The notes beneath the pieces were generated by a model that ran no database searches, was not told the origin of the DNA, and was given only the letters and a program-made list of their open reading frames with translations. A program made the translations under genes and the position numbers. A stretch of 64,000 bases of DNA from Natronomonas gomsonensis (GTDB taxonomy: Archaea > Halobacteriota > Halobacteria > Halobacteriales > Haloarculaceae), in NCBI RefSeq assembly GCF_024300825.1, contig NZ_CP101323.1, positions 3,162,001-3,226,000 of the forward strand. The letters run 5' to 3'. This document shows, one piece after another, positions 42,534 to 53,764 of this stretch (position 1 is the stretch's first letter; each line of letters begins with the position of its first letter).

Positions 42534-43703
42534 TCAGTCCCCGAGGTCGAGTATCTGTCCCAGCGTGCGCTCGGGGTCGTCGTTGCCGAGCGCCGACTCG
42601 ACGAGGAGCCGACCGCCGAGAACGGAGGGACTCAACACCACGTCGGCGCCCGCTCGGCGGAGTTTCCGGACGTTCTCGCGGTCGGTGGCCGCGGCGACGA
42701 TGCGGAGGTCGGGGTTGAGTTCGCGTGCGGTCAGAATCGACAGCGCGTCCTGTGCGTCGTCGTTCGTCGCGGCGATGAGCGCCGTCGCCCGCTCGATGTG
42801 GACGCGCTGGAGCGGCTCCTCGTCGCTGGGGTTGCCGGTGACGACCTCGAACCCGTGGTCCCGGAGGTGTTTGGCCTTCTCGGTGTCGCGGGTGACGACC
42901 ACCGAGGCGTCGCGGTTGAGGTTTTCGAGTATCGGTTCGGTCAGTTCGCCGTATCCGAGGACGATGTAGTGGTCGTCCAACAGGTCGAGTTGTTTGTCGC
43001 TCATGTTTCCGAGTGCGGTCGCGAGGCGGGCCTCGATGAGTGGGCCGAGCAGAGTACCGAGGGCGACACCGAAACTGGCGACGCCGGTGAGCAGGACCGA
43101 CATCGAGAACAGTCGCCCGAGCTGTGTCGTCGCCGTGATGTCGCCGTAGCCGACGGTCGAAGCGGTGACGAGCGTGAAGTAGAAGGCATCGAGGACGGTG
43201 TTCACCTGCGGGAACTCATCGCGCAGCGCGTACGTGCCGATGGTGCCGTAGGCTTGGACGCCGACGATGGCCGCCAGCGAGGCCAACTGTGTCGTGTTGA
43301 GGTCGACGCGCCGGTCGAAGTACCGGCGGTTGAGGAGGACTGCTGGAAGGGAAAGCACCGACAGGGCGACGAGCGGAAGCGAGAGGACGCTCGACTGCGC
43401 CAACCCCTGAAGGGCCGTCACGGGCAGTAAAACGACCGTCGACGACCACGCCACTCGGTAGCCGCGTCGGAGACCGTAGACGCTGACAAGCATGCCGAAC
43501 CCCGTCATCGTCCCGGTGAACCCGGCCGTCCGAGCGACGTACCCCGGAATGATGGTGGCGAGCGGCCCGGAAATCGTCGTCGCACCGATGTTGACGAGGC
43601 CGGTGACGACCGACAGCACGGCGACGACCGTCGTCGACAGCACCGCCGCTTGGGTCCGTAACAGCGTCGGTGTCTCGTGTCGTCTCTCCGGTTCGGCCGC
43701 CAT
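42534..43703 (-). CDS. Potassium channel with RCK/TrkA domain
   Basis: The 389-residue protein has about four N-terminal membrane segments, then a pore unit with selectivity filter TASTVGYGDI (near residue 178), followed by an RCK domain (YIVLGYGELTEPILENL) and a C-terminal tail. It is a ligand-gated potassium channel. It is divergent from two membrane proteins ending in RCK_C domains, 108 bases apart, and close to trkA. This strongly suggests a potassium-handling neighbourhood. Confidence 0.92.
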   Translation of the reverse strand: MAAEPERRHETPTLLRTQAAVLSTTVVAVLSVVTGLVNIGATTISGPLATIIPGYVARTAGFTGTMTGFGMLVSVYGLRRGYRVAWSSTVVLLPVTALQGLAQSSVLSLPLVALSVLSLPAVLLNRRYFDRRVDLNTTQLASLAAIVGVQAYGTIGTYALRDEFPQVNTVLDAFYFTLVTASTVGYGDITATTQLGRLFSMSVLLTGVASFGVALGTLLGPLIEARLATALGNMSDKQLDLLDDHYIVLGYGELTEPILENLNRDASVVVTRDTEKAKHLRDHGFEVVTGNPSDEEPLQRVHIERATALIAATNDDAQDALSILTARELNPDLRIVAAATDRENVRKLRRAGADVVLSPSVLGGRLLVESALGNDDPERTLGQILDLGD

Positions 43704-43811
43704 ACTGTCGTCTCAGCTACGGCCACGATAAAACCTCTCCGCTCTCGTCCGACTACGGTTCGCCGCTGTCGGAGCGGTAGTAGTTTAACGTCGCGGGGTC
43801 TCAGGGGGTCC

Positions 43812-45014
43812 ATGGTTCAAGCGCTCCCCGTCGAGATTCTGCTGGGTATCTATCTCGGCATCCTGACGGGAATCTTCCCGGCGCTCATTGCGTGGGGGCT
43901 CGGATTCATCTTCAAATATTTCACCGGTGTCTCCATCCCTGCCTTCGGTGTCATCGTTCTCTCGCTGGCGATTGCGGGTATCAACGGCGGACTGCTGGCA
44001 CTGAACGACCCGGCGGTTCTCGCCTCCGGTCCCCGAGTCGTCATCGCACTCGTCGTCGTGTTGATGGTCTCGATGTACGCCCACTCGAAGGGCGACCAGA
44101 TGGGTGCGACGTTCCCGAAACGGCTGTCGCTGTCGAAGTTGCGGGAGCGGACGCTGTCGAGCGACGTGGTCGACCTCGTCGGCTCCCGCGGCGAAGTCCG
44201 TGTCGAGGTCATCGGCGAGGTCATCGACATGGAGGGGTATCCGCCGCTGTCCGAGGAGACGCGAACGGCCATCAAGACCGGCGAGTGGCGGCTCCCTGCG
44301 GACCTCCCGATTTCGGAACTCGAGACGCGCTTCGCCGACCGACTGAAGACGGAACTTGACCTCGCCGACGTTTCGGTGTCGATCGACGAGCGTGGGCGAG
44401 CGACGGTCATCGCCGCGCCGCCGCTGTCGGGCATCTCCAAGCGAGTCCCGACCGGTAAACGGGCCGTCTCCCTCGACGTGCTCGTCCCCACGGGGGTCGC
44501 TCGGGGTGACGAGGTACTCGTCGTCGCGGATGGGCTCTCCGTCGAGGGGACCGTCGTCGCCGCCCGCTCCGGGACGAAAAAAGAGGAGTTGAAGACCGAC
44601 GGCGGAACTGAGGAGGTCACACCCCCCGTCAACGTCCCGACGACGACGGGTGGGGATGGCCGTGTCACCGTCGCGGTCGCTCGCAGCGACGCCGAGAAAC
44701 TGCTCTCGGCCCAGCGGCCGAAAATCGTCGTGACCGCCCGTGGAACCCGCCGGGAGTTCGAACTCATCTCGTTGCTTCGACAGGCCGGCAAGCGTTTCCG
44801 GAAATTCACGGTCAAGCCGACCAGTTCCCTTGCGGGGTCGACGCTGGCTGGGGCCAATGTCCGTGATAACCACGATGTCGCAGTACTGGCGGTCAAGCGC
44901 CCCAACGGCTGGCTGGTCGCCCCGCGTGGGGCGACGGAGCTATCGGCCGGCGACGAACTGTTCGTCGTCGGGACACGCGAGGCGCTCAACGCCTTCGAGG
45001 GGGTGGTCGGATGA
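43812..45014 (+). CDS. Membrane protein with C-terminal RCK_C domain, copy 1
   Basis: The 400-residue protein has three N-terminal membrane segments (about residues 7-30, 42-62 and 72-92), then a large soluble region and a C-terminal RCK_C (TrkA_C) domain with GSTLAGANVRDNHDVAVLAV and ELSAGDELFVVGTREAL. No RCK_N, pore loop or selectivity filter is visible. It is paralogous to the next gene, overlapping by ATGA. The pair probably senses a ligand and acts with the neighbouring channel or TrkA, which is inferred from context. Confidence 0.82.
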   Translation: MVQALPVEILLGIYLGILTGIFPALIAWGLGFIFKYFTGVSIPAFGVIVLSLAIAGINGGLLALNDPAVLASGPRVVIALVVVLMVSMYAHSKGDQMGATFPKRLSLSKLRERTLSSDVVDLVGSRGEVRVEVIGEVIDMEGYPPLSEETRTAIKTGEWRLPADLPISELETRFADRLKTELDLADVSVSIDERGRATVIAAPPLSGISKRVPTGKRAVSLDVLVPTGVARGDEVLVVADGLSVEGTVVAARSGTKKEELKTDGGTEEVTPPVNVPTTTGGDGRVTVAVARSDAEKLLSAQRPKIVVTARGTRREFELISLLRQAGKRFRKFTVKPTSSLAGSTLAGANVRDNHDVAVLAVKRPNGWLVAPRGATELSAGDELFVVGTREALNAFEGVVG

Positions 45015-46174
45015 CCCTTGCACAACTCGCCATCGTCGAGGGGTTCCTCGTCGACGTGGCGCGTGTCGCGGTGTTGGTGCTGCTCGCTGGGGTGTTAGGC
45101 GCAATCGTGGGACTGATTCATCGGTGGTACGCCAACGAACAGGTTCCGGACGGTCTGACGGTACTCATAGGGCTCAGCAGCGTCGCACTGTATCTGAACA
45201 CTGCCGGTGCGCTCGGTGAGGTCATTGGCGGTACCGGCGGGGACTTACTCGCTTTGGAGATGGTGGCCTACAACACCATCACGCTCTTCCTTTCGGGTGT
45301 CACGGCGAGTGCGGGTGGGCGAGTCGGCGACCGAGCAGGTATCAGCGTCTTCGCCGTCTCGGGACGGAAATCCGTCGAGCAGGACGTGAGTCGCATCGTC
45401 AAGTCCGTCGGCCGGGTGACCACCGTCGAGGTGCCGGACGACATCGAGGACATTGACGGCTACGAACCCGTCGACTCGGCGACGAAGGACAAACTCGCCG
45501 GTCAGACGCTGCTGTTCCCCCGGCGACTCACCGTCGAAGAGTTACAGACACGGTTCGTCGAGCGGCTCCGCATCGACTACGACGTCGGGTACGTCGACGT
45601 GGAGTTCGCCGAGGACGCGAGCATCGAATACCTCGCGTTGGGACGGCGGGAATCCGGTCTCGGACCGACGCTACCGCCCGGTAGTGCTGCCGTCGCCGTC
45701 AGGGCGGACCCGCCGAACAACGCCAGTCCCGGCGACGCCGTTCAGGTCTGGACGACCGGCGACGGGGAGGAAGCGTCGCCACACCGGGTGACGAACGCGG
45801 AGCTCCGGGGCACGGCCGAGGACGTGGTGACCCTGACGATGGACGAGCGGGATGCACGGCGCTTCGACACCGAGCGCCGATATCGACTCGTCACTCTCCC
45901 CGTCGAGGCTCGAACAGACAGGGAGTTCGCCGCCCAGTTGCGCGCCGCCGAGGAGACGACGACTGCAGTCACAATCGAGTCAGGAAGTCCCCTCGTCAAC
46001 TCCAGTGTCGGCGCACTCGACATCGCCGTCGTCGCGGTCCGAACGTCTGCTGGCGATATCGAGGCGATTCCGCCGCGAAGGCGACCACTCGCTCCCGGCG
46101 AGACGGTGTACGCTATCGCTCGTCCGGCACAACTCCGTCAACTGGAGGCGGCTGCCGCGGTGGACGGCCAGTAG
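45011..46174 (+). CDS. Membrane protein with C-terminal RCK_C domain, copy 2
   Basis: The 387-residue protein has three N-terminal membrane segments (about residues 15-40, 48-68 and 78-98), a soluble region and a C-terminal RCK_C-type domain (SSVGALDIAVVAV, then LAPGETVYAIARPAQL). Domain order equals that of the preceding gene but sequence identity is modest, so they are old paralogues probably forming a heteromer. No ion filter is seen. Its start overlaps the preceding stop by ATGA. Confidence 0.82.
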   Translation: MTLAQLAIVEGFLVDVARVAVLVLLAGVLGAIVGLIHRWYANEQVPDGLTVLIGLSSVALYLNTAGALGEVIGGTGGDLLALEMVAYNTITLFLSGVTASAGGRVGDRAGISVFAVSGRKSVEQDVSRIVKSVGRVTTVEVPDDIEDIDGYEPVDSATKDKLAGQTLLFPRRLTVEELQTRFVERLRIDYDVGYVDVEFAEDASIEYLALGRRESGLGPTLPPGSAAVAVRADPPNNASPGDAVQVWTTGDGEEASPHRVTNAELRGTAEDVVTLTMDERDARRFDTERRYRLVTLPVEARTDREFAAQLRAAEETTTAVTIESGSPLVNSSVGALDIAVVAVRTSAGDIEAIPPRRRPLAPGETVYAIARPAQLRQLEAAAAVDGQ

Positions 46175-46211: not shown

Positions 46212-46547
46212 ATGGCCGACGACCCGATAGACCCAAGCGACATCGGCGAAGGGGATGCACCCCCAATCGAGGAGGCACCATACAAAATCATCTTCGAGGC
46301 GAACAAGTGCATCGCCGCGGGCAAGTGTGCGGAGGTGTCGACTAACTGGGAGATGGACATCACGACCGGCATCGCCAAGCCGGACGTGTACTTCTTCGGA
46401 GAGGGGAACCTCGAACACAACATCCGTGCGGCCGAGGCCTGTCCGGCGAAGAAGGACCGAGGCGTCATCCACGTGGTCGACCGTCGAACGAACGAAGAAA
46501 TCGCTCCCGACCCCCACGGTGACGGCACGCTGTCGGTCGACTGGTAA
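46212..46547 (+). CDS. Ferredoxin-like iron-sulfur protein
   Basis: The 111-residue protein has CIAAGKC and a later CPAK, a C-x5-C...CP pattern as in [3Fe-4S] or single-cluster ferredoxins; a fourth ligand is not evident. Cys residues sit near positions 36, 42 and 79. It should carry electrons between soluble enzymes. It stands alone, 37 bases after the RCK_C pair, and is followed by a strong hairpin before the peptide-transport operon. Confidence 0.82.
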   Translation: MADDPIDPSDIGEGDAPPIEEAPYKIIFEANKCIAAGKCAEVSTNWEMDITTGIAKPDVYFFGEGNLEHNIRAAEACPAKKDRGVIHVVDRRTNEEIAPDPHGDGTLSVDW

Positions 46548-46677: not shown

Positions 46678-46690
46678 TATATATTTATAT
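46678..46690 (+). promoter_or_regulatory. TATA box of the dpp operon
   Basis: TATATATTTATAT is a very strong AT-only box ending 21 bases before the dppA ATG at 46712, so the transcript is expected to have a leader of only a few bases or none. Confidence 0.7.
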
Positions 46691-46711: not shown

Positions 46712-48469
46712 ATGGCGCGAAACGACAGCCAGGACAACGTCAATCAGAACCGGCGGCGGCTCCTCCAAGCGATGGGCGCCGCCGGTGCGGCTGGACTCGC
46801 CGGTTGTTCCGGTCTCGGTGGCAACGGAAACGGCAACGGCGACGGAAGCGGTCTCCCGGACGACCTCCAACAGCAACTCAGCGACGGCTTCGAGGAGGCG
46901 GGCTTCGAGACGCCGTGGGAAGGCGAAATCATCACCAACGAAAACCCCGAACGCGTCCAGTGGGCGCAGGTCATCCAAGAGGAACTCAACGCCACGGAGT
47001 TCTTCGACATCGAACTGAACCAGTTCGAGTGGACGACCTACGTTGGCCGCGTACTGGCCGAGGATTCCGCCGAAGACGAGGCGCTCGTCTGTCTCGGTTG
47101 GTCTGCCGGCTGGGACCCCGACGCGTACATCCGGAACCTGTTTCACAGCGACCAGCACACGCCTGCCTGTTGTAACGTCAACCACTTCTCCGACGAGGAA
47201 ATCGACACCCTCATCGACGAGGGGACGTCGACGACCGACATCGACGAGCGGGCCGACATCTATCAGGATGCCCAGGAATCTATCGTCGAGTCCTCGCCGG
47301 TGGCGTTCATCCGCTACGGCGAGGAAATCGACGCCTTCCGGTCGGCGGCGGTCGAGGGCTGGCAGACCTACCCCATCAACGGCGGCAAGTACTACAGCGT
47401 CTACGCGCCGTGGGCGGGCGTTCACGCGGAAGTCATGGGTGACAACGCCGGCGACGAGAACGAACTCATCGCGACGTTCTCCGCCGACGTGGCCAACACC
47501 GACCCAACCGAGCAGAACGACACCACCTCGACGATGTCGACGAACCTCGTCTACGAGGGTGTGATGGGCGTCGACTACAACGGCGAACCGCAGATGATGC
47601 TCGCCGAGGACCTCGAACAGGTCAGCGAGACGGAGTACGTGTTCACGCTTCGTGAGGGCGTCCAGTTCCACCCCAGCCAAGAGTTCGACTTCGACGGCCG
47701 CGAGTTGACCGCCGAAGACGTGAAGTTCTCCTGGGAGCGGTATCTCGGCACGACGCGAGAGGCCGACGTCGGCGACTGGCTCGGCGTCCCCGACACGCCC
47801 GAGGGCGAATCCGCCGACTCCTTCGAGGGAACGCTCACCGTCGAAGGCGACTACACGCTGCGAGTCGAACTGCCCGAGGTGTACGCGCCGTTCCAGTTCA
47901 CCGTCGGCGATGCACTCATCGTGCCGCGGGAGGCTGGCGAGGACGGCCCCCTCGACCTCTCGACGGAGCCCATCGGGACGGGTCCTTACCGCCTGGACCA
48001 GTACGACCCCGACGAGCTGTGGCGTCTGACGGCGTTCGACGACCACTGGTACGACGGCTCCGGCGACGTGCCGGCCGACCAGCCCATCGAGACGGCGACG
48101 TTCCGCATCATCACCGAGAGTTCCGCTCGCGAGGCTGCACTCCGCGGTGGCGACGTGGACCTCGCCCAGCCGCCGCAGGGCAGCGTCTCGGCGCTCCAAG
48201 AGGAGAGCGACTTCTCGGTCACGAGCCGCATCGCCGGCGGCTTCGACATGTTCATCTACCCGATGAACGCCGATACGCCGTTCCAGAGTCAGGACGTCCG
48301 ACTCGCGGCCAACCGACTCATCAACCGGCCCGGCATCGTCAGCGCCGTCTACGACGGCATCGGTACCCCAGCGTACTCACCGATTTCGCCACTGGCGGGG
48401 TCGTTCACATCCGAAGAGTTCAACCAACGCATGGGTGACGAGTACTCGCGGTACTACGGCGCCGAATAA
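46712..48469 (+). CDS. dppA: Peptide-type ABC transporter binding lipoprotein, circularly permuted
   Basis: The 585-residue lipoprotein has a Tat signal (NRRRLLQAMG) and lipobox (LAGCSG, C32). Its family-5 binding domain appears in swapped order. Residues about 50-240 correspond to the usual C-terminal half (ERVQWAQVIQEEL, LGWSAGWDPDAYIRNLFHS, EEIDTLIDEG). Residues about 250-585 correspond to the usual N-terminal half (LVYEGVMGVDYNGEPQMMLA, YVFTLREGVQF, LTAEDVKFSWERYL), ending with QDVRLAANRLINRPGIVSAV. This is what a circular permutation gives. It is the first gene of dppABCDF and probably captures peptides. Confidence 0.93.
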   Translation: MARNDSQDNVNQNRRRLLQAMGAAGAAGLAGCSGLGGNGNGNGDGSGLPDDLQQQLSDGFEEAGFETPWEGEIITNENPERVQWAQVIQEELNATEFFDIELNQFEWTTYVGRVLAEDSAEDEALVCLGWSAGWDPDAYIRNLFHSDQHTPACCNVNHFSDEEIDTLIDEGTSTTDIDERADIYQDAQESIVESSPVAFIRYGEEIDAFRSAAVEGWQTYPINGGKYYSVYAPWAGVHAEVMGDNAGDENELIATFSADVANTDPTEQNDTTSTMSTNLVYEGVMGVDYNGEPQMMLAEDLEQVSETEYVFTLREGVQFHPSQEFDFDGRELTAEDVKFSWERYLGTTREADVGDWLGVPDTPEGESADSFEGTLTVEGDYTLRVELPEVYAPFQFTVGDALIVPREAGEDGPLDLSTEPIGTGPYRLDQYDPDELWRLTAFDDHWYDGSGDVPADQPIETATFRIITESSAREAALRGGDVDLAQPPQGSVSALQEESDFSVTSRIAGGFDMFIYPMNADTPFQSQDVRLAANRLINRPGIVSAVYDGIGTPAYSPISPLAGSFTSEEFNQRMGDEYSRYYGAE

Positions 48470-48495: not shown

Positions 48496-49446
48496 ATGTC
48501 CCTACGCAGGTACGTCGTCAAGCGACTGTTACTCACCATCCCAATACTGCTGGGTGTGACGGCCATCACGTTCGCGATGGTCCACCTCCAACCCGGTGAC
48601 GTCATCGACGTACTCGTCGGATTCAACGACGTCAGCGCCGAGACGGAACGGCAGTTGCGGGAACAGTACAACCTCGATGAGCCGATATACGTCCAGTACG
48701 TCCTGTGGCTCAGAGACGCCATGGTACTCGACTTCGGACAGTCGTTCATCTCCGAGCGGAGCGTCGGCGAGGCGATTTCGACCCGCCTCCCCTATACCGT
48801 GCTACTCGGCATCCTCGCGCTCTTCATCTCCATCGCCATCGGCGTTCCGGCCGGCATCATCGCCGCGGTCAAGAAGGGCGAGCAGGCCGACGAGGTCAGC
48901 CGCGTCGCCGCCCTCCTCGGCGTCGCGACGCCGAACTTCTGGCTCGGACTGATGTTGCTGCTCGTCTTCAGCGTCCAGTTGGGGTGGTTCCGAACCATCC
49001 CGCCCTCGGACGTGGCGGTGTACGACCCGGCGTTGTTGAAGTTCATGGTCCTCCCGGCGATTACGCTGGGGACGGCCTCTGCGGCGCTTCTGATGCGCAT
49101 CATGCGGTCGTCGATGCTCGAAGAGTTGAACAAGGAGTACGTGAAGATGGCCCGCGCGAAGGGGCTCCCCGAGCGGACCGTCATCACCAAACACGTCGTC
49201 CGGAACTCACTGATTTCCGTCGTGACGGTGGCGGCGCTTCAAATCGCGTTCATCGTCGACGGCGCGGTCGTCATCGAGCAGGTCTTCTCGGTTCGGGGCA
49301 TCGGGCGCCTCCTGCTCGGTGCGATTCTCCAGCGTGACTTCCCCATCATTCAGGCGTCGGTCCTGATGATCGGTGTGACTATCGTCTTCGCCAACCTCTT
49401 GGCTGACATCATCTACTCCTATCTCGACCCACGAATTCGCTACTAA
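48496..49446 (+). CDS. dppB: Peptide ABC transporter permease B
   Basis: The 316-residue permease has six membrane helices. Landmarks are the N-terminal RRYVVKRLLLTIPILLGVTA, PGDVIDVLVG and the EAA loop (EYVKMARAKGLPERTVITKH) that docks onto the ATPases. It forms half of the channel with DppC. The gene starts 26 bases after dppA. The domain order is normal, unlike the binding protein. Confidence 0.94.
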   Translation: MSLRRYVVKRLLLTIPILLGVTAITFAMVHLQPGDVIDVLVGFNDVSAETERQLREQYNLDEPIYVQYVLWLRDAMVLDFGQSFISERSVGEAISTRLPYTVLLGILALFISIAIGVPAGIIAAVKKGEQADEVSRVAALLGVATPNFWLGLMLLLVFSVQLGWFRTIPPSDVAVYDPALLKFMVLPAITLGTASAALLMRIMRSSMLEELNKEYVKMARAKGLPERTVITKHVVRNSLISVVTVAALQIAFIVDGAVVIEQVFSVRGIGRLLLGAILQRDFPIIQASVLMIGVTIVFANLLADIIYSYLDPRIRY

Positions 49447-49449
49447 ACT

Positions 49450-50484
49450 ATGGCTACGAGAGACAAGACTTCCGAACGCGGCCGGATTCAGGTGACTGGG
49501 TTCGACGCCTCGATAGTGACCGAACGCGACGAACTCGTCGACTGGGAAGCAGCCGAGGGATCCAAAAGCGGTACCAGCAGACGCGCGAAAGCGTGGTACC
49601 GGTTCAAACAGAACCGGTCGGCGTTTCTCGGCATCGGCATCCTCGCGTTCATGCTGCTCGTCGCGGTTTTCGCACGACCGATAGAGGTCGCCGTCGCCGG
49701 CCAATCGATTCCCATCCAGCCGATTCAACTGGCTCCACACAGCACCGACACCAGCCTCATCGCGAGCAACACCCCACCCAACGCCGAACACCCGTTCGGG
49801 ACGACGCAACTCGGTCGCGACATCCTCTCGCAAGTGATGGTCGGCGCACGATACAGCCTCTCCATCGGCGTCATCGCCGTCGGACTGGCTGTTCTCGTCG
49901 GCGTCCCCATGGGCGCCATCGCCGGCTACTACGGCGGCTGGGTCGACGAGGCCATCATGCGCGTCGTCGACATTCTCTATGCGTTCCCCTTCCTCGTCCT
50001 CGCTATCGTCATCATTGCCATCCTCGGGCAGGGATTCTGGAAGATGATTCTCGCCTTGGTCATCGTCGGCTGGATTGGCTATGCGCGTCTCATCCGAGGT
50101 GAAATCCTCTCGGTGAAAGAAAACGAGTACGTGATGGCCGCGAAGGCGCTGGGCGCCCGGGACAGTTCGATTATCTTCAAACACATCGTCCCGAACGCGA
50201 TGGCGCCGGTCATCGTACAGGCGACGCTCAACGTCGGCACTATCGTCCTCGCGGCCGCCGCTCTCGGGTTCCTCGGGTTGGGTCTCCAGCCCGGTTCTCC
50301 CGAGTGGGGGACAATCCTCTCGGGCGGCCGTGACGCCGTCATTGCCGGGCGATGGTGGGTCACCGTCTTCCCCGGCCTCGCCATCGTCTTCTTCGTGCTC
50401 GCGGTCAACCTCGTCGGCGACGGCGTCCGCGACGCGATGGACCCACAGGACACCGGTGGCGACACCGGCGGAGGGTTCCGCTGA
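49450..50484 (+). CDS. dppC: Peptide ABC transporter permease C
   Basis: The 344-residue permease has an N-terminal soluble extension of about 50 residues, then six helices, with HPFGTTQLGRDILSQVMVGA and an EAA loop ENEYVMAAKALGARDSSIIF. It pairs with DppB. The stop shares one base with the dppD start (TGATG), indicating tight coupling. Confidence 0.94.
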   Translation: MATRDKTSERGRIQVTGFDASIVTERDELVDWEAAEGSKSGTSRRAKAWYRFKQNRSAFLGIGILAFMLLVAVFARPIEVAVAGQSIPIQPIQLAPHSTDTSLIASNTPPNAEHPFGTTQLGRDILSQVMVGARYSLSIGVIAVGLAVLVGVPMGAIAGYYGGWVDEAIMRVVDILYAFPFLVLAIVIIAILGQGFWKMILALVIVGWIGYARLIRGEILSVKENEYVMAAKALGARDSSIIFKHIVPNAMAPVIVQATLNVGTIVLAAAALGFLGLGLQPGSPEWGTILSGGRDAVIAGRWWVTVFPGLAIVFFVLAVNLVGDGVRDAMDPQDTGGDTGGGFR

Positions 50485-51848
50485 TGACGCTTCTGGAAGT
50501 CGAGGACCTCCGGACGCAGTTCTACACGGAGGACGGTGTCGTGCGGGCGGTCGACGGCCTCTCGTATCGCATCGAGCGCGGCGAGAAGTTCGGTATCGTC
50601 GGCGAATCGGGCGCCGGAAAGTCCGTCGCCTCGCTGTCGTTGATGCGACTCATCGACGACCCCGGTCGCGTCGCCGGCGGGTCGATTCGGTTCTACGAGG
50701 AGTCGACAGTCGAGCGCTTCGAGCGGAAGTTCCCCAAGCGCGTCGTCGACGTGGCGGACCTCCGTGCGGAACACGACGTGACCGAACTCGTCGACCAACT
50801 GCTCGAGGAGGGTGTCGCGCCGTCGTCGATAGCCGACGACCGAGTCGACGCCGACGCTGACGCGGCGACGGTGGTCAGAGACGGCGACGTCGGAATGCGC
50901 GACTTGGTCGATAGTCGTTACGGCGTCGACCTCGGTATCGTCGACGAGGACGCCGTCGTCGTCCACGACGGCTCCGAACGCTACATCGAGATTACGCGCG
51001 CCGACGGCGAACCGTTGCGCCAACTCCGTGGGAACCACATAGCGATGATTTTCCAGGATCCACAGACGGCGCTCAATCCGGTGTACACCATCGGCGAGCA
51101 GATTTCCGAGGCCATCCGGACACACATGGACCTCGACAGCGCCGCCGTCAAGGACCGCGCCATCGACATGCTCGACCAAGTTGGTATCCCCGACCCCGAG
51201 AGTCGATACGACAACTACCCCCACGAGTTCTCCGGCGGCATGCAGCAGCGGGCGGTCATCGCCGTCGCGCTGTCGTGTGACCCCGACCTCATCATCGCGG
51301 ACGAACCGACGACGGCGCTGGACGTGACCATCGAGGCCCAGATTCTCGAGTTGCTCGACGATTTGACGACCGAGACGGGAACCGCGATTCAGATGATTAC
51401 CCACGACCTCGGCGTCGTGGCGGGCGTCTGTGACCGCGTCGCGGTGATGTACGCGGGCAAGCCGGTCGAAATCGCACCGGTCGAGGAACTGTACTACGAT
51501 CCGAAACACCCCTACACCGTCGGCCTGATGGGGTCGATTCCCCGCATCGGGGACGGGCGTGAACGGCTCGACACCATCCCGGGGACGATGCCCGACCTCG
51601 TGCAGGTGCCGCCGGGCTGTAGTTTCCACCCGCGGTGTCCGTACGCCGAGGAGGCGTGTACGCGGAAGGAACCGAGCCTCACCGAGGCCGACAGCGGTGA
51701 CCGGGCGGACCCCGTCGACGACGACGCACACGCCGCGGCGTGTCTGGAGTACACCGACGACCTCCAACAGGGCCTCGACTACGAGGTCCACGTCGGCGAG
51801 GGAATCGAGACGGGCGCCGGCGGCGAGACGACGGAGGAGAACCAATGA
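50484..51848 (+). CDS. dppD: Peptide ABC transporter ATPase D with an inserted domain
   Basis: The 454-residue ATPase has Walker A (GESGAGKS, residues 40-47), Q-loop (MIFQDPQTALNP), signature FSGGMQQRAV, Walker B (LIIADEPTTALDV) and the C-terminal peptide-transporter Cys cluster. Between Walker A and the Q-loop is an extra region of about 95 residues (about 73-168) that typical DppD/OppD proteins lack. The core ATPase motifs are otherwise intact. ATG at 50484 begins the similarity and overlaps dppC. Confidence 0.93.
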   Translation: MTLLEVEDLRTQFYTEDGVVRAVDGLSYRIERGEKFGIVGESGAGKSVASLSLMRLIDDPGRVAGGSIRFYEESTVERFERKFPKRVVDVADLRAEHDVTELVDQLLEEGVAPSSIADDRVDADADAATVVRDGDVGMRDLVDSRYGVDLGIVDEDAVVVHDGSERYIEITRADGEPLRQLRGNHIAMIFQDPQTALNPVYTIGEQISEAIRTHMDLDSAAVKDRAIDMLDQVGIPDPESRYDNYPHEFSGGMQQRAVIAVALSCDPDLIIADEPTTALDVTIEAQILELLDDLTTETGTAIQMITHDLGVVAGVCDRVAVMYAGKPVEIAPVEELYYDPKHPYTVGLMGSIPRIGDGRERLDTIPGTMPDLVQVPPGCSFHPRCPYAEEACTRKEPSLTEADSGDRADPVDDDAHAAACLEYTDDLQQGLDYEVHVGEGIETGAGGETTEENQ

Positions 51849-53194
51849 GTGCTGACGACCCCCTGATTCGAACGGAGAATCTCACCAAGTACTACTCGAC
51901 GGAGAGCGGCTTCCTCGACCGACTGCTCGGCGAGGACAAGGACGTGAAGGCCGTCGACGGCGTCGACATCGAAATCAAGGAGGGTGAAACCCTCGGTTTG
52001 GTCGGCGAATCGGGCTGTGGGAAGTCCTCGCTCGGTCGAACCCTGTTGCAACTGGAAGACGTCACCGCCGGGTCGGCATACTACCGCGACGGTGACAAGG
52101 AAATCGACCTCGCGCAACTGTCCAACAGCGAGATGCGGGAGTACCGCAAGGACCTCCAGTTCATCTTCCAGAACCCGTTTGCGAGTTTGAATCCGCGGCT
52201 CACCATCGCCGACATTATCGGCGAACCGCTCGACGTTCACGGCCTCGCAAGCGGCGACGAGCGACAGGAGCGCATCGAGGAACTGCTCGAAACCGTCGGG
52301 CTACAGGCGAGTCACGCCGGCCGGTACCCCCACGAGTTCTCCGGGGGCCAACGGCAGCGAATCGGCATCGCTCGGGCGCTCGCGGTCGACCCCGATTTCA
52401 TCGTCTGTGACGAACCCGTCTCCGCGCTGGACGTGAGCGTTCAGGCCCAAATTCTCAACCTCCTCATGGACCTCCAAGAGGAGTTGGGACTGTCGTATCT
52501 GTTCATCGCCCACGACCTCAGCGTGGTCGAGCACATCGCCGACCGCATCGCGGTGATGTATCTCGGCGAAATCGTCGAGGTCGGCACGCCCGAGGAGGTG
52601 TTCACCGAACCACACCACCCATACACCGAGGCGCTGCTGTCGGCCATTCCCGAACCGGACCCGCTGTGGGAGAGCGACCGCGTCCTCCTGAAGGGGACGG
52701 TCCCCTCGCCGATGGACCCACCCTCCGGCTGTAAGTTCCACACTCGGTGCCCACGCGTGATTCCGCCCGAAGGAATGGACATCGGCCAAGAGGAGTTCCG
52801 CTCCATCATGGACCTGCGGGTCCGTATCGCCGACCGCGAAGTGGGTATCGAGTACGCCTGGGAACAGGTCGAAGAGCGCAATCCCGGAGCGAACCGGGCG
52901 GACCTCCGCGAGGAGTTCATCACGGAACTCCGCGAACACGAACTCGACACCGAACCCGACGGCGTCCACCGCCGGCGGGTCGACGAGGCCATCGAGTTCC
53001 TTGCGGACGAGGAGTACGAGGCCGCGGGCGACCTGCTCCGGGAGCACTACGAGAGCGTCTGTGAGACCCGAGAACCGACGCTCGGCGACGGCGAGAATCC
53101 CAAGTCCTGTCACCTCTTCGATGTGGACGAAACCGGCGAAATCCCCGACACCGCGGGCGATGCACACGACGGCGCTGTCGGTGCCGACGACTGA
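51845..53194 (+). CDS. dppF: Peptide ABC transporter ATPase F with a C-terminal insertion
   Basis: The 449-residue ATPase has Walker A (GESGCGKSS), Q-loop ([15 protein letters not shown]), signature [10 protein letters not shown] and Walker B ([13 protein letters not shown]). The C-terminal oligopeptide/dipeptide cysteine region is split: CKFHTRCP (from about residue 296) is separated by about 95 extra helical residues from the second half CETREP...SCHLF (from about residue 406). The start overlaps dppD by ATGA, so the two ATPases are cotranslated. Confidence 0.93.
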
Positions 53195-53239: not shown

Positions 53240-53764
53240 ATGCGCCGCATCTACGAATCGCGGGCGCTGGAGTACGACGACGAGGACCCCTACGCTCCCA
53301 AGCGAACCTCCGACGACGAACGGTCGCGGAAGCCCATCGATTGGGCGTCGGCCAGCCACGCCTTCGTTCCGATGCGACTCAGGCCGCGAGCGGTCGGCGT
53401 TTCAGTCGAAACCAATCGACAGCGATACGAGTCCGACGAACCGGTTCGCTTTCGCGTGTCGTTCCGAAACCGCGTTCCGTTTCCCATCGCGCTGCGAACC
53501 GATTCGCCGGTCCGGTGGACGTGGAGCATCGACGGCGTCGACGAGGCCAGTCGGGTCACGAACCACCCCGACGACGACAGCCTCTTTCGGTTTTCGCGCT
53601 CGGAGACGAAAACGTTCGAGCGGTCGTGGTCCCAGCGATTTCAGGAGTCCGCCCGACGCTGGGAACCGGCGTCGCCCGGCGAGTACTCACTTGCGGTTCG
53701 AGTCAACGTTCCGGATGCCGACGACAAGGGGTTGACTGACGAAACGACGTTCACAATCGAGTAA
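53240..53764 (+). CDS. Haloarchaeal protein with a beta-sandwich-like domain
   Basis: The 174-residue protein has an acidic N-terminus followed by a region with alternating strands (VGVSVETNRQRYESDEPVRF, then RWTWSIDGVDEAS and GEYSLAVRVNV), like a small Ig-like or DUF7974-type domain. No signal peptide is visible. It follows the dpp operon by 45 bases, but function and transcript linkage are unknown. Confidence 0.65.
   Translation: MRRIYESRALEYDDEDPYAPKRTSDDERSRKPIDWASASHAFVPMRLRPRAVGVSVETNRQRYESDEPVRFRVSFRNRVPFPIALRTDSPVRWTWSIDGVDEASRVTNHPDDDSLFRFSRSETKTFERSWSQRFQESARRWEPASPGEYSLAVRVNVPDADDKGLTDETTFTIE

Follow-up and report, generated by a model that had tools for sequence, protein, structure and literature searches.

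The window, the whole 64,000-nucleotide stretch of Natronomonas gomsonensis DNA analyzed here, encodes a family-5 substrate-binding protein (SBP) whose two halves stand in exchanged order. This permutation is real, conserved, and recurrent, and the protein is very probably a working cluster-C/family-5 SBP with a circularly permuted chain. A sequence-only reading had proposed that the normal C-terminal half comes first and the N-terminal half second. Alignments to DppA, 3m8u, 8z1z, and Pfam bore this out, and the gene coordinates (46712 to 48469) and all motifs that it quoted proved correct when the sequence was read. The gene and its surroundings are laid out as follows.

46680..46690, + strand: TATA-box-like element tatatttatat, approximately 22 to 32 nt 5′ of the ATG, visible in the sequence; putative function
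46712..48469, + strand: type A permuted family-5 substrate-binding lipoprotein of 585 aa, ATG at 46712
46751..46807, + strand: twin-arginine motif (residues 14 to 16) through the lipobox Cys (LAGC, residues 29 to 32), read from the sequence
46859..47410, + strand: normal C-terminal half, here first, residues 50 to 233, opening with helix 50-63, approximately DppA 330 to 505 (alignment and model)
47411..47458, + strand: linker AGVHAEVMGDNAGDEN (residues 234 to 249, approximately 16 residues), bridging the old C terminus to the old N terminus (compared with normal-order termini)
47459..48445, + strand: normal N-terminal half, here second, residues 250 to 578, of which 304 to 565 match DppA 56 to 317
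48496..49446, + strand: dppB-type permease, 59 to 71% identical to permeases of the closest operons whose SBP is in normal order
49450..50484, + strand: dppC-type permease
50484..51848, + strand: dppD-type ATPase, its Walker A region followed by a long insertion
51842..53194, + strand: dppF-type ATPase, its C-terminal Cys region containing a long insertion
53240..53764, + strand: conserved small gene closing the operon, in the same position with permuted and normal SBPs (operon comparison)

The operon runs SBP-dppB-dppC-dppD-dppF-small gene, with the BCDF transporter genes accompanying the SBP. The Tat motif reads NRRRLLQ, and both it and the lipobox are kept across the alignment of type A proteins. 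Judged from its sequence, the protein is predicted to be a Tat-exported lipoprotein encoded by gene 1 of a dppABCDF-type operon, and the TATA-like element would fit a leaderless transcript starting near 46712.

Several neighboring features were seen in passing. The insertion in the dppD-type ATPase spans approximately 90 residues between Walker A and the Q-loop; it splits the matches to many haloarchaeal relatives, and therefore its sequence or length varies. That in the dppF-type ATPase covers approximately 100 residues inside the C-terminal Cys (iron-sulfur/oligo_HPY) region. The small gene at the operon end had no Pfam family above the cutoff. Just 5′ of the operon lies a 79-aa ferredoxin-like frame (46309-46547, CIAAGKC...CP) with no match in Pfam or NCBIfam, and at 42534-46174 a potassium-channel-like protein with TrkA_N is divergent from two adjoining membrane proteins ending in TrkA_C.

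Order of the two halves and position of the cut

When we searched the PDB with phmmer, E. coli DppA (1dpp) residues 56 to 317 aligned with query residues 304 to 565, while DppA 335 to 497 aligned with query residues 56 to 223. The same swapped order was repeated against 3m8u, 8z1z, and the other family-5 alignments shown. The PF00496 match (182 bits against a cutoff of 32.4) covered both halves in two stretches, with SBP_bac_5 positions 2 to 257 at residues 293 to 568 and positions 273 to 365 at residues 60 to 148, in the first half of the protein. The chain thus runs C-half, linker, N-half and departs from the canonical order of SBP_bac_5 and cluster C.

The cut falls between an “(E/D)EYxRY” motif and the helix that opens the C-half, at approximately 318 to 334 of mature DppA. 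In the window protein, “DEYSRY” is found near the end and helix 50-63 at the start. Normal-order relatives are uninterrupted across this point; in L049, for example, EEYMRY runs directly into DPEQARELLERGF (fuller stretch, SPLLSDYTSESFLQEMGEEYMRYDPEQARELLERGF). The earlier reading is corrected in one respect: the cut does not directly follow DVRLAANRLI but comes approximately 45 residues later, and those residues (INRPGIVSAVYDGIG...SPLAGSFTSEEFNQRMGDEYSRY) belong to the normal N-half.

Two rival explanations were weighed. One is misassembly, or local alignments giving a misleading picture of a protein that is really colinear with normal SBPs; we found no supporting point for it. The full-length protein recurs at 95% identity in a same-genus genome, and 23 more genomes carry colinear matches (57% in one genome of another genus and 42 to 52% in the other 22), with the permuted order kept across haloarchaeal families. 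Solved SBPs matched the window protein by halves only, in swapped order. As a control, 63 of 63 bacterial SBPs adjoining related dppB genes, a set returned by a dppB-based scan of genome contigs, read as normal by the same method. With the order identical in many independent genomes at 42 to 95% identity, the control reading normal, and the halves aligning swapped, we regard this account as already refuted.

It is also very unlikely, if a little less remote, that permuted SBPs are decaying or nonfunctional copies. Broken SBP frames do occur in one permuted case (G164) and a few normal ones, but the permuted frames stay open for hundreds of residues, their motifs are conserved at 42% identity, the signal and lipobox are retained, and the gene stands first in a transporter operon. 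The G164 case (L167) is a type A permuted SBP spread over two frames, by recent decay or sequencing error.

The AlphaFold model of the window protein had a pLDDT of 90.7 and a pTM of 0.88, obtained from an alignment of permuted relatives to which normal relatives had been added half by half, each half in its own row, which could have steered the model to the known fold. From the single sequence, the pLDDT was 33 and the model useless. Each of the best 50 matches from Foldseek, which keeps chain order, was a family-5 SBP, and all but one aligned over 253 to 283 columns with a target TM of approximately 0.40, i.e., half of the protein. None of these 50 was a full-length match, and thus no solved structure of this topology was found. 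We expect that the protein would fold as the usual two-lobed Venus flytrap. Taken together, three lines of evidence support circular permutation of this family-5 SBP: the half order against solved relatives, the existence of normal-order orthologues, and a confident model of which only half aligns sequentially.

Both orders in corresponding operons

The sequence-only reading had called circular permutation rare in this family. This was not borne out: of 113 dppB-anchored operons (109 orthologous haloarchaeal operons and four type B outgroup operons), 54 encoded a permuted SBP, the four outgroup operons among them, and the other 59 a normal one. The set was partly picked by SBP similarity and does not estimate frequency. 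Among operons fetched by dppB search with a readable SBP, 36 of 76 were permuted. Unpermuted relatives beside similar dpp operons, which that reading had suggested seeking, were found with the same gene order, and their SBPs were approximately 54% identical to the window SBP in each half.

Permuted SBPs of type B were found on alphaproteobacterial plasmids of Nitratireductor, Maritalea, and Neorhizobium, and one-piece colinear matches occurred also in Roseomonas, Ketogulonicigenium, and many haloarchaea. Where annotated, permuted relatives were mostly named simply “ABC transporter substrate-binding protein.” The genus of the window has both type A (the window) and type C (L229 in G352) in corresponding operons. 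The window genome also carries a second permuted family-5 SBP, of type D (L003, L072), in a 724-aa frame at G000:C1, approximately 1240400 to 1242500. It adjoins a gene for a multipass membrane protein, PAP2-phosphatase-like by eye, and no dpp-type transporter genes.

Origins and probable reversion of the permuted order

All permuted cuts fell within one stretch of approximately 25 residues, on one side or the other of a particular helix. In type A, the cut precedes this helix, the one that opens the C-half; in type C, whose end reads ..NEYDPERAEELLEEV, it follows the helix, and in type B/D it follows the helix and a short hairpin. In the SBP tree, built with the halves restored to normal order, four order changes were needed and well-supported normal-order branches separated A from C. 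Forcing A and C into one clade was rejected (lnL −456; AU p = 0.00026), and type B/D formed a separate third group that reaches the alphaproteobacteria. The half swap thus arose at least three separate times in family-5 SBPs, as A, C, and B/D.

A single origin of type A was weakly rejected (p = 0.04 for the SBP and 0.0496 for the transporter), and type A may have had either one origin or two. The transporter tree alone needed seven order changes, more than the four of the SBP tree, and therefore the pattern may also reflect SBP genes being swapped from operon to operon.

Type C was one clade except for a normal-order SBP within it, L222, the sister of permuted L200. The two were also sisters in the permease tree, and holding type C as a clade without L222 was rejected (p = 0.024). 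The simplest reading is that L222 is probably a reversion to normal order; the alternative is repeated gains at the same type C cut. An apparent resemblance of the L222 junction to normal-order relatives was an alignment artifact, as permuted rows have linker residues in those columns.

Could a single ancient permutation underlie all types, with every normal-order relative in the operon a reversion or replacement? Cuts that all lie near one helix, a likely reversion in L222, and the weakness of the type A rejection speak for it. We nonetheless find it improbable, given the strong rejection of A and C as one clade, cuts of different kinds before and after the helix, and the many reversions it requires. 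Separate origins remain our reading. The swaps would arise by in-frame tandem duplication and subsequent trimming, with at least one possible return to normal order (L222). Permutation by duplication is a standard model (PMC3320104); we looked for N-C-N or C-N-C intermediates and saw none.

A further reading, to which we give slightly less than even odds, is that SBP order toggles between normal and permuted in one orthologous operon, with several gains and at least one reversion, all of them close to the same helix. The reason would be that shifting the lipid anchor from lobe to lobe has almost no effect on fitness or is favored by selection because it tunes delivery to the permease.

Anchor, ligand, and comparison with known systems

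We take the cut to lie in the C-lobe, going by the domain boundaries of DppA. The lipid anchor would then hold the C-lobe rather than the N-lobe because the new N terminus lies in the C-lobe, and the window SBP is likely an ordinary flytrap SBP with its anchor so shifted. Its docking, ligand, and benefit we infer. The flytrap mechanism would be retained, with ligand handed to the neighboring DppBCDF, and both lobes could still meet DppB. In E. coli DppABCDF, the DppB scoop motif is touched by both DppA lobes (PMC12136057). Bacterial type B members have ordinary signal peptides without a lipobox and look secreted rather than lipidated, so a change of anchor cannot account for every case.

DppA binds the dipeptide ends through R383 and D436 in precursor numbering (PMC12136057). 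In the alignment to 1dpp, the R383 column is T and the D436 column a gap in the window SBP. Neither residue is conserved, and a dipeptide ligand should not be assumed. The NCBIfam DppA equivalog scored 85.5 bits, below its cutoff of 1005.

Natural circular permutations are usually regarded as single old events. Orthologous operons with both orders at approximately 54% identity provide a matched natural experiment for studying the roles of chain order and anchor position in a Venus flytrap protein and also inform how permutation arises and reverts. Since normal-order relatives occupy the same operon in other species, the effect of the rewiring is directly addressable. Colinear profiles misread a sizeable share of the family-5 SBPs in haloarchaea and some of those in bacteria.

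We found no report of permuted family-5 SBPs in the open-access literature, the scope of our search (subscription journals fell outside it). The precedent is Tp0684/TpMglB-2 of Treponema pallidum (“cluster Bc”), a natural circularly permuted SBP lipoprotein whose authors proposed a link between topology and membrane anchoring (PMC4990184). As described there, Tp0684 differs from the window SBP in being a cluster B (sugar) protein with another cut and an additional hinge crossing (PMC4990184). Unlike the window SBP, it is not known to have orthologues of normal order in a matching operon. The window SBP matches family 5 only, and not cluster B (type I).

Type B proteins (Nitratireductor WP_113156578.1, Maritalea WP_117397031.1, and Halalkalicoccus WP_238532955.1) show a half exchange of the same kind but are approximately 25% identical to the window SBP, are cut after the helix and short hairpin, and, in bacteria, have plain signal peptides. 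DppA, Bacillus subtilis AppA, and Haemophilus parasuis HbpA (cluster C, PF00496) are homologous to both halves of the window SBP (E values down to 1e-31) and share its operon type, and the window SBP is predicted to be two-lobed as they are. Compared with these proteins, its halves are exchanged, and its N terminus and lipid anchor would lie in the C-lobe.
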